A stretch of DNA of 64,000 nucleotides from a virus. The position numbers and the translations under genes are program-made. The stretch is taken from positions 1-64,000 of the IMG/VR virus record IMGVR_UViG_3300032224_001146; one strand, written 5' to 3'. Positions 3,368 through 7,483 of this stretch are shown here, piece by piece. Within the stretch, counting starts at the first letter, position 1, and each line of letters opens with the position of its first letter. Below the pieces are notes generated by a model. The model did no database searches. It worked only from the letters and a program-made list of their open reading frames with translations, and was not told the origin of the DNA.

Positions 3368-3383
3368 TGTGATTTATCTCACA
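3368..3383. promoter_or_regulatory. CRP/FNR-like operator C
   Basis: TGTGATTTATCTCACA, a perfect TGTGA-N6-TCACA site, 27 bases from the ATGTCAG block of promoter C. It overlaps the last codons and the stop of the 3374-3577 gene. Confidence 0.7.
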
Positions 3384-3577
3384 CGATTAGCGAAGACCCA
3401 CTTACTCTCATTAGGAGAGAGGTAGCGGTGAGAGACAAGACCCTCTGAGGCTACCATAGCAACATACGCCATACGGCTAATGTAGTTACCATTAGCAAGG
3501 CGGAACACATTATTATCCTTAGTGTTAGAGGATGACATAGAGTGATTTGGCTCTACTACTACTGTTAGTGAATTCAT
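3374..3577 (-). CDS. Small phage protein, unknown function (67 aa)
   Basis: A 67-residue protein, the only gene between promoters D and C and so a single-gene unit nearest the strand switch. The segment NVFRLANGNYISRMAYVAMVASEGLVSHRYLSPNES has the look of a small domain with a basic surface (isolated Arg and His residues), compatible with nucleic-acid binding but not diagnostic. AAAGAAAGGAATTCACA upstream supplies the ribosome binding site. As the first gene of the block it would be a reasonable candidate for an early regulator; this is inference from position. Confidence 0.7.
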   Translation of the reverse strand: MNSLTVVVEPNHSMSSSNTKDNNVFRLANGNYISRMAYVAMVASEGLVSHRYLSPNESKWVFANRVR

Positions 3578-3624: not shown

Positions 3625-3647
3625 ACTATAACACACCCCACTGACAT
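3625..3647 (-). promoter_or_regulatory. Early promoter D
   Basis: Minus-strand TATAGT (3625-3630) preceded by TGT, with ATGTCAG at 3641-3647. Here the base run before the block (TTGAAA) could also act as a -35. The dyad TTTCAACTTGAAA lies directly upstream. Confidence 0.75.
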
Positions 3648-3674: not shown

Positions 3675-3690
3675 TGTGATTTACGCCACA
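3675..3690. promoter_or_regulatory. CRP/FNR-like operator D
   Basis: TGTGATTTACGCCACA, identical to operator B. It is 27 bases from the ATGTCAG block, as in unit C. Confidence 0.65.
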
Positions 3691-3714
3691 TTTATTTATG
3701 GTCGCACTATCTAT

Positions 3715-3735
3715 TTATCCACAGCCTGTGGATAT
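3715..3735. other. Inverted DnaA-box-like palindrome at the strand switch
   Basis: TTATCCACA (3715-3723), an exact match to the DnaA-box consensus, is followed after three bases by TGTGGATAT, its near-perfect inverse. Together they form a 19-bp perfect palindrome with a single central base (3716-3734). It lies between the minus-strand early block and the first plus-strand gene, beside A/T-rich DNA (3745-3820). That is a natural place for a replication origin or a replication/transcription switch, although no replication genes are visible here. Confidence 0.5.
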
Positions 3736-3822
3736 CTCGTATCATGCATCATAAAAATATATTAACATTTTGTGAAATCTGAATTCCTAGTCAACCAGAA
3801 CATAATATGATATTATATACAC

Positions 3823-3933
3823 ATGCCATCACACAGAATAGTAAAATGCGAAGTATGTGGGCGGGAACTAGAAGTAAGATCTGGTTTTGCTCATAAGACA
3901 CTATACAATCATATGAAAGAACATAAGTTATAA
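3823..3933 (+). CDS. C2H2-like zinc-finger microprotein (36 aa)
   Basis: A 36-residue ORF, MPSHRIVKCEVCGRELEVRS onwards, ending YNHMKEHKL. The CxxC (CEVC) and HxxxH (HMKEH) pairs are spaced like a single C2H2 zinc finger and the chain is basic, so nucleic-acid binding is plausible. TATTAT (3811-3816) lies six bases before the ATG with no Shine-Dalgarno sequence, suggesting a leaderless mRNA. It heads a three-gene plus-strand cluster. Too short for routine gene calling but the motif is persuasive. Confidence 0.6.
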   Translation: MPSHRIVKCEVCGRELEVRSGFAHKTLYNHMKEHKL

Positions 3934-5851: not shown

Positions 5852-6406
5852 CTATGCTTTCTGCATTGTTAAACACTTTGTGGGAAACTCCTCTAGGAAT
5901 TTCTTATATCTTACAGTTCCATAACTTGACCAAGAACTCCAGTCCTTGCCCCCGTTACTCATTCTATAAACGACATCTGCGTTTAAAATGGGGTTGAATA
6001 ATTTTGAATCGGAAGTGAGATTATATTTATCTCTTCTTTCCACTCCAAGATAACCAAGCATATTTACTTGGAAGATCCCATATGAGTGATCCCCTGTTCG
6101 TTTGTTTCCATTAAAAGCAAGCGGTCTTCCGTTAGACTCTGTCTTAGACACAGCCCACGCCTTTCTTAGAGCAAGATTGTTAAATCCAGCAATGCTTAAA
6201 ACTTCTACAAGTTGACAGTCACTTAATTCAGTTGCCTTACTATAAGTTTCTATCTTTTGTGCCATAAGAGCCGCAGCGTTTGGCTGGACAATTAAGGCAT
6301 TTGCAGGAACGGTTGTGTGTGTTACAAAAATAGCTGCTACCGCAAACATTACGAATATGGTAGAATTACTAAGTAACTCATAAAAACGTTTCATACTTTT
6401 CTCCAT
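5852..6406 (-). CDS. Secreted lysozyme/transglycosylase-like muralytic protein
   Basis: A 184-residue protein with an N-terminal membrane/signal segment (TIFVMFAVAAIFVT, residues ~15-28) ending in an AxA-type site (PANA, residues ~33-36). It is followed by a lysozyme-like domain: KTESNG carries the likely catalytic Glu, GDHSYGIFQVNMLG is the typical SLT/lysozyme core motif, and NGGKDWSSW follows. This arrangement resembles actinobacteriophage lytic transglycosylases. I start it at 6406 because AAAGGAGG is correctly spaced there; the longer frame to 6448 has no ribosome binding site. It probably cleaves cell-wall glycan after export, as endolysin or cell-wall modifier. Confidence 0.8.
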   Translation of the reverse strand: MEKSMKRFYELLSNSTIFVMFAVAAIFVTHTTVPANALIVQPNAAALMAQKIETYSKATELSDCQLVEVLSIAGFNNLALRKAWAVSKTESNGRPLAFNGNKRTGDHSYGIFQVNMLGYLGVERRDKYNLTSDSKLFNPILNADVVYRMSNGGKDWSSWSSYGTVRYKKFLEEFPTKCLTMQKA

Positions 6407-6439
6407 TGGCAAAACCTCCTTTAGAGACAGTGAATATAA

Positions 6440-6468
6440 TCTTAACATTGATAGAACAACCCTGTCAA
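6440..6468 (-). promoter_or_regulatory. Promoter for the lysozyme-like gene
   Basis: Minus-strand TTGACA (6463-6468), 17-base spacer and TTAAGA (6440-6445). A second TTGACT (6472-6477), part of the TAGTCAAC repeat, lies just upstream. The intergenic stretch 6407-6490 also serves the divergent gene at 6491, for which TATAAT on the plus strand (6433-6438) is a candidate -10. Confidence 0.45.
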
Positions 6469-6490: not shown

Positions 6491-7483
6491 ATGAATATTT
6501 CTTATTACACAGTAAAAGCGGGATTAAATCCTGCTGTTGGCTTCGGATATGCAGGTCAAAATATAGTTAGATCATTACAAGAATTGGGACATAATGTAAC
6601 TTATGCAAACCCTAAAGCTGACATTCAACTAAATTTTACACAACCAGATAATTTTAAGTTTCATAAAGGTCAATATCAAATTGGTTATACTCCATGGGAA
6701 TCAACTCATATTGCAAAAGATTGGGTTGAAAAATTTAATGCATGTGATGAAGTTTGGGCAACTTCTAAATGGACTGCGGATGTTTTTGAAAATGCAGGTA
6801 TTGACAAAAAAGTTAAAATATACATGCATGGAATTGAAGACATTTGGAAACCAAAAAAAAGAATCCAAAGGGATGTTATTAGATTTTTACATGTTGGAGA
6901 ACCTTCACCAAGAAAAGGTGGACAACAAGTTGTAGATACTTTTATTAAGTTATTTGGAAATAATCTAGATTATCATTTAACTATCAAGTGCCATCTTAAT
7001 AATACTATTAGAGTATATAATAAATATAATATATTATCTTTACCTAATATATATAATAATATATCAATTATAACAGATGAATATGAACCTTGTCAACTGG
7101 TAAATCTTTTTCACTCTCATGATATACTTTTGTATCCAAGTTGGGGAGAAGGTTTTGGTTTTATCCCGCTTCAAGGTTTAGCAACTGGCATGCCAGTAAT
7201 TTCAACTTATGATTGGGCCCCATACAAACAATTCCTTGGACCATTAAAGTTAAAGTCTAAACTTTCTAGTGAGACTTTACCAAAATCACTTGGTCACACT
7301 TATGTTGGAGAAATGTACAAACCAGATCAAGAACATCTTGAGTCTCTTATGTATGACGCAGTTATAAATTTTAAAATGTATTCTGATTTTTATTTTGCTC
7401 AGTCAACTAGAATACATGAACAATATAACTGGTTACAGTTGACTAAGAATGCTTTTGCAGATTTAGAAAAAAAATTTTCTTAG
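6491..7483 (+). CDS. GT4-like glycosyltransferase
   Basis: A 330-residue GT-B-fold glycosyltransferase of the family 4 type, which transfers a sugar from a nucleotide donor. The N-terminal domain starts MNISYYTVKAGLNPAVGFGY; the C-terminal nucleotide-binding domain has LHVGEPSPRKGGQQVV (residues ~134-149) and the donor-site block SWGEGFGFIPLQGLATGMPV (~218-237). The usual second Glu of the E-x7-E motif is Gln (EGFGFIPLQ), which may affect activity. The acceptor is unknown: phage glycosyltransferases modify host surface polymers, phage DNA or virion proteins. No DNA-base-modifying partner gene is visible. The ribosome binding site is weak. Confidence 0.8.
   Translation: MNISYYTVKAGLNPAVGFGYAGQNIVRSLQELGHNVTYANPKADIQLNFTQPDNFKFHKGQYQIGYTPWESTHIAKDWVEKFNACDEVWATSKWTADVFENAGIDKKVKIYMHGIEDIWKPKKRIQRDVIRFLHVGEPSPRKGGQQVVDTFIKLFGNNLDYHLTIKCHLNNTIRVYNKYNILSLPNIYNNISIITDEYEPCQLVNLFHSHDILLYPSWGEGFGFIPLQGLATGMPVISTYDWAPYKQFLGPLKLKSKLSSETLPKSLGHTYVGEMYKPDQEHLESLMYDAVINFKMYSDFYFAQSTRIHEQYNWLQLTKNAFADLEKKFS

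Follow-up and report, generated by a model that had tools for sequence, protein, structure and literature searches.

What is the function of the perfect palindrome that lies between a minus-strand ORF (3374-3577) and a plus-strand ORF (3823-3933), next to AT-rich DNA, in the 64,000-nucleotide stretch of viral DNA analyzed here (hereafter, the window)? The original prediction interpreted it as two inverted DnaA-box-like sites and proposed a replication origin, a control site that senses DnaA, or a means of titrating the DnaA of the host. Comparison with related phages suggests that it is probably an operator for the host DnaA, most plausibly a repressing one, which occupies a fixed 32-bp slot with exchangeable contents and would tie the expression of the leftward genes to the DnaA or replication state of the host.

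Table 1. Features of the leftward control region and its surroundings (window coordinates)
Feature	Position	Strand	Description
Perfect 19-bp palindrome	3716..3734		9-bp arms TATCCACAG / CTGTGGATA flanking a single C
Inverted pair of candidate DnaA boxes	palindrome, 3716..3734		3-bp spacer, 12-bp pitch; orthologous pair in L315, L318/L331 and L329
Candidate DnaA box 1	3715..3723	+	TTATCCACA, exact consensus
Candidate DnaA box 2	3727..3735	-	ATATCCACA; differs from TTATCCACA at position 1 only; the close relative L329 has TTTTCCACA
Putative operator slot, 32 bp	3709..3740	-	length fixed, contents swapped among relatives
Conserved AT-rich element AAAATGTTAATATATTTTTATGATGCATGAT	3741..3771	-	-10-like hexamers facing the leftward block; presumed promoter
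Conserved box ATAGTGCGACCATA	3697..3710	-	borders the slot; ATAGTGCGCCCATA in relatives
CRP/GlxR-like site TGTGGCGTAAATCACA	3675..3690	-	precedes the promoter motif by 27 bp
Predicted promoter ATGTCAGTGGGGTGTGTTATAGT	3625..3647	-	fits the RecA-NDp/PafBC consensus tTGTCRgtg-N8-TannnT
Five predicted leftward-block promoters	964-942, 1273-1251, 2237-2215, 3340-3318, 3647-3625	-	WTGTCAG-N10-TANNNT
Conserved 67-aa protein	3374..3577	-	first leftward gene; 57 relatives in IMG/VR
Divergent 36-aa zinc-finger/ribbon-like ORF	3823..3933	+	possibly leaderless, extended -10 at 3811-3816

The phage and its likely host

The phage encodes a DnaE-type polymerase, a DnaB-like helicase, a primase, a RuvC-like resolvase, a terminase and a portal protein. 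Because the DNA polymerase and the portal protein are closest to those of Streptomyces phages (55-60% identity), we infer that the host is an actinobacterium; the relatives of the window phage are probably freshwater phages. No DNA match was found in named phages, and Rfam and tRNA scans yielded nothing. The conserved 67-aa protein encoded by the first leftward gene had no match in Pfam, PHROGs or NCBIfam, its structure model is weak (pLDDT 67), and cellular genomes yielded no member of its family. A lysozyme-like protein (Pfam SLT_3) is encoded on the minus strand at 5852-6448, adjoining the main strand switch.

An inverted pair of DnaA-like boxes at the strand switch

The 19-bp perfect palindrome beside A/T-rich DNA at the strand switch is real; read from the window, positions 3715-3735 comprise TTATCCACA-GCC-TGTGGATAT, with the two boxes separated by a GCC spacer that the original prediction omitted. 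The entire 87,193-base virus record contains no other copy of the palindrome, which is one of only five perfect inverted repeats detected there whose arms measure 9 bp or more and whose loop does not exceed 5. Exact TTATCCACA occurs twice in the record compared to 1.5 expected occurrences, that is, without enrichment, so that the argument from the rarity of exact DnaA-box matches is weak support by itself. The significance is carried, instead, by the inverted pair, with 0.0 expected in Markov simulations of the record; the chance of encountering any such inverted DnaA pair is 7.5e-6 per random 32-bp stretch. Given this value and the retention of the pair in three other phage elements, where the substitutions stay within the DnaA consensus, a functionless chance resemblance, with which the chance-level frequency of single boxes would agree, appears extremely improbable.

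Across IMG/VR, the same 18 specified bases are present in the convergent orientation at at least 119 loci, in the everted orientation at 10, and at none in the control in which the 18 bases were read backwards; the convergent pair is thus favored over the everted one in viruses at large. No DnaA was found in 50 virus records that carry the palindrome and, as far as tested, the palindrome-bearing viruses do not represent bacterial origins misclassified as viral. One unrelated viral contig contains a large array of DnaA-like boxes (TTATCCACAGG, TTATGCACAGG) along with three copies of the palindrome (L046:6760-7200).

A fixed-length slot with exchangeable contents

A first scan of the upstream regions of the relatives found no copy of the palindrome, that is, the palindrome as such is not conserved, and therefore, we compared the contents of the corresponding slot. 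The order of elements upstream of the first leftward gene is an AT-rich block (AAAATGTTAATATATTTTTATTTGTATGAT), TATGAT, a slot of 31-33 bp and ATAGTGCGCCCATA; in many relatives, the latter is followed by a CRP/GlxR-like site and then by a promoter. Of the 44 distinct copies retrieved, 33 have a slot of 32 bp, 8 have one of 31 bp and 3 have one of 33 bp. For copies whose slot measures 32 bp, the mean identity is about 83% in the flanks versus 54% in the slot; for the window and its relative L175, the respective values are 90% and 34%. The combination of similar flanks, a divergent slot and a fixed length indicates that relatives swap what the slot contains but preserve its geometry.

Of the distinct copies, 32 contain a TGTCCG motif in the slot, 6 a LexA-type box, 4 an inverted DnaA pair and 2 other sequences, where the counts refer to distinct sequences that share ancestry rather than to independent events and come from a comparison in which some virus records may be incomplete. 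The LexA-type box (CGAAC-N4-GTTCG in 6 distinct elements) fits the Streptomyces LexA consensus, tCGAAC-N4-GNNCGa (PMC9380542). The four DnaA pairs belong to the window, L315, L318 (duplicated by L331) and L329, with the window and L329 being closely related. The element is usually found once per record, and the gene located 3' of it varies, with small ORFs outside the 67-aa family in L329 and L318. A TGTCCGnTTTGTCC pair occupies the slot in most relatives (L128, L140, L158 and others) and recurs near other promoters.

DnaA or an unrelated dimeric repressor

The perfect symmetry of the site in the window phage and the adjoining promoter would also be compatible with an operator for some unrelated dimeric repressor of phage or host origin, and the LexA-type content of the slot is a palindromic dimer site as well. 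However, in all three other pair elements, the symmetry is broken, with the left arm TTTTCCACA or TTTTGCACA opposite TTATCCACA, so that the feature kept is the two TTWTNCACA boxes rather than the palindrome. This is the DnaA-box consensus, with position 5 tolerated by DnaA (PMC5835720), and the arms of the slot pairs in the three relatives all conform to it, differing at positions 3 and 5. Box 1 of the window phage is an exact match, and box 2 has one mismatch, with the consensus present in the relatives; the variation is accordingly confined to positions tolerated by DnaA (W at 3, N at 5), the exception being position 1 of box 2 in the window. That both arms keep the consensus despite the lost symmetry favors DnaA over a palindrome-specific repressor, and given also that the same boxes are found in phased tandem layouts in other modules of related phages, we consider an unrelated repressor unlikely.

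Several observations count against the DnaA reading, namely, the mismatch in box 2, the restriction of slot pairs to 4 distinct elements, two of which are close relatives, the lack of any excess of DnaA boxes in the record as a whole, and the lack, in other promoter modules of the window record, of boxes that are present there in the relatives. Taken together, the comparisons support the interpretation of the palindrome as an inverted pair of candidate boxes for the DnaA of the host, located in a promoter-associated operator slot; the predicted DnaA-sensing control site is supported by this location and by the retention of the consensus in arms that no longer form a palindrome in the relatives.

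Promoter motifs and CRP/GlxR-like sites

Among the five predicted promoters of the leftward block, those at 3647-3625 and 2237-2215 fit WTGTCRGTG-N8-TANNNT, with A replacing the weakly conserved first t of the consensus, and the other three fit only the relaxed pattern WTGTCAG-N10-TANNNT. The consensus in question, tTGTCRgtg-N8-TannnT, is that of the LexA-independent DNA-damage promoters of mycobacteria (PMC5656591), and the RecA-NDp-type consensus promoter is used by PafBC (PMC6789036). In the relatives, 549 distinct promoter motifs have the exact PafBC-type spacing compared to 2-76 at other spacings.

The window contains one exact match to the GlxR consensus TGTGANNTANNTCACA (PMC4254451) at 3368-3383 and two sites with G at position 5 (2275 and 3675), with 0.03 expected. 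The CRP-like sites are mostly located 27, 37 or 47 bp upstream of a promoter motif, that is, in steps of one helical turn, and 199 of the 774 promoter motifs have a CRP-like site, or a composite site as described below, upstream, compared to one with such a site downstream. In the wider virus set, CRP-like sites are scarce near the palindrome (3 of 86, versus 1.9% at random places), which indicates that the link with CRP is specific to the phage group of the window. Another motif, TAGTCAAC, is present in 7 copies compared to 2 expected (3788, 4315, 4446, 7438 and 14815 in the window; 81350 and 86905 in the record), several of them near gene starts, and might represent a second class of promoters or operators.

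DnaA boxes elsewhere in the phage group

In the relatives of the window phage, DnaA boxes in helical phase, frequently joined to CRP/GlxR-like sites, are located upstream of promoters with the PafBC/RecA-NDp consensus. Exact boxes number 1-12 per related record, often in pairs, with spacings that cluster at 11-12, 21-24, 41-42 and 53 bp; in two sets of spacings, the helical phasing at 10.6 bp reaches R of 0.81 and 0.66, compared to null maxima of 0.27 and 0.24. Nearly all variation among 27 second boxes, aligned for one such arrangement, is at position 5 (G 12, A 9, T 4, C 2). L136, L141 and L149 carry the 3-bp-spaced inverted pair at places other than the slot, in the form TTATACACA-CCC-TGTGGATAA.

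The composite TTATCCACATGANNTANNTCACA, which unites a DnaA box with a CRP/GlxR-like site, was identified at no fewer than 120 viral loci and is often doubled, with the copies 41-42 bp apart (for example, L129:9238 and L140:9144). A module of the window at approximately 1310-1370 contains two CRP-like sites 42 bp apart without a DnaA box, which implies that the DnaA and CRP-like parts can be separated. A search of 84,980 cellular genomes found the composite in 2 stretches, which gave no lead to the host; they are on two MAG contigs from unrelated phyla and perhaps represent mis-binned phage DNA. Neither DnaA domain IV (Bac_DnaA_C) nor the Crp-type HTH (HTH_Crp_2) was detected in 20 phage records, including that of the window phage, some of which may be incomplete, so that the binding proteins would be those of the host.

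Origin-like stretches, in which DnaA boxes are combined with AT-rich DNA and CTCCACT repeats, are present in three relatives, at L301:1270-1405 (five boxes at 21-bp steps), L303:694-756 and L305:644-739.

Does the window palindrome itself mark a DnaA-dependent replication origin, where DnaA would open the AT-rich block and load the DnaB-like helicase of the phage? The conserved AT-rich block that adjoins the pair, the location at a strand switch, the typical occurrence of one element per record, and the phage-encoded DnaB-like helicase, primase and DnaE-type polymerase are all compatible with this possibility. However, 40 of the 44 elements lack a DnaA pair in the slot; there is no box cluster, only the single pair, with the next exact box at a distance of 570 bp; more origin-like arrays of 3-6 boxes exist elsewhere in some relatives, beside AT-rich DNA and CTCCACT repeats; and the site itself has the layout of a promoter with an operator. 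The minimum of the cumulative GC skew, the check suggested in the original prediction, is not at the palindrome but at 6510, close to the main strand switch, although the skew follows, and is confounded by, gene orientation. An origin at this site therefore appears rather improbable.

Titration is less plausible still. A decoy that sequesters DnaA and blocks the initiation of host replication could exploit a box of the high-affinity type, with the sites multiplied by the phage copy number, but two exact boxes per 87-kb genome are few for such a role, and the site has a set place in a promoter-associated slot, which non-DnaA motifs fill in the relatives. We regard this possibility as very unlikely.

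A putative host-DnaA operator

Returning to the operator for the host DnaA, the protein would bind the inverted pair in the slot, downstream of the AT-rich, -10-like element. The slot starts right after the -10-like hexamer, so that a bound protein would cover approximately the first 30 bases past any transcription start there. DnaA could then repress the upstream promoter until it is depleted or engaged elsewhere, in which case the leftward gene block would follow the DnaA or replication state of the host. Given that the same slot can hold a LexA-type box and that LexA acts as a repressor (PMC9380542), a repressor site is the simplest interpretation of the slot; repression of transcription from the upstream promoter is the most likely effect of DnaA at the slot, and activation is possible. 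From the motifs, we infer the binding of host DnaA, CRP and PafBC, the promoter role of the AT-rich element and the transcription starts.

A broader scenario, in which our confidence falls slightly short of even, is that a large group of phages, probably infecting freshwater Actinobacteria, shares a modular early-gene control region composed of sites for host regulators: PafBC-type promoters, phased CRP/GlxR-like sites, fused DnaA boxes and a fixed 32-bp socket whose occupant is exchanged among a DnaA pair, a LexA-type box and other operators, such that relatives would sense different host states through one architecture. If this is the case, these phages would read the replication initiator, the DNA-damage response and a cAMP-type regulator of the host directly at their promoters and would evolve by swapping one operator within a fixed socket, which would provide a testable model of host-state sensing along with a rich natural set of DnaA-box arrangements.

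Relationship to known regulatory systems

The use of host regulators by phage promoters is already known for CtrA, Spo0A and LexA (PMC9437464). With regard to such co-option, the site described here is located in a promoter region predicted from motifs and is conserved in related phages, and no copy of the regulator was detected in the 20 phage records searched. In the open-access literature, we encountered no description of actinophage DnaA boxes or phage PafBC promoters, nor of DnaA or PafBC sites used by phages in the slot and promoter fashion seen here.

The closest parallel is with the CtrA-controlled promoters of phages of Alphaproteobacteria ('lytic deferment', PMC9437464), where sites for a global, cell-cycle regulator of the host are likewise present in phage promoter regions and expression follows the state of the host; the same study cites the Spo0A sites of phi29 and LexA-controlled phages, and the DnaA motifs tested in the Alphaproteobacteria phages showed a distribution without asymmetry. 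The phages analyzed here differ in the predicted DnaA sites, the exchangeable slot of fixed length and the additional CRP/GlxR-like and PafBC-type elements.

In bacteria, DnaA regulates promoters through TTWTNCACA boxes located nearby, as in the autoregulation of dnaA (PMC5835720) and in the case of uvrB, where LexA and DnaA sites are found at one promoter (PMC6015884), which resembles the slot contents. In contrast, the site described here belongs to a phage, consists of an inverted pair with a 3-bp spacer within a slot, and is predicted from the sequence. The DNA-damage promoters of Actinobacteria that depend on PafBC (RecA-NDp, or P1; PMC5656591, PMC6789036) share the tTGTCRgtg-N8-TannnT architecture with the promoter downstream of the palindrome, but in the present case, this architecture is found in phage genomes and is apparently coupled to CRP-like, DnaA or LexA-type sites. 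Finally, the GlxR/CRP operators of Corynebacterium glutamicum (PMC4254451) are similar sites of the TGTGANNTANNTCACA type upstream of promoters, whereas those reported here belong to phage genomes, are separated from the promoter motif by 27, 37 and 47 bp, and often overlap a DnaA box.
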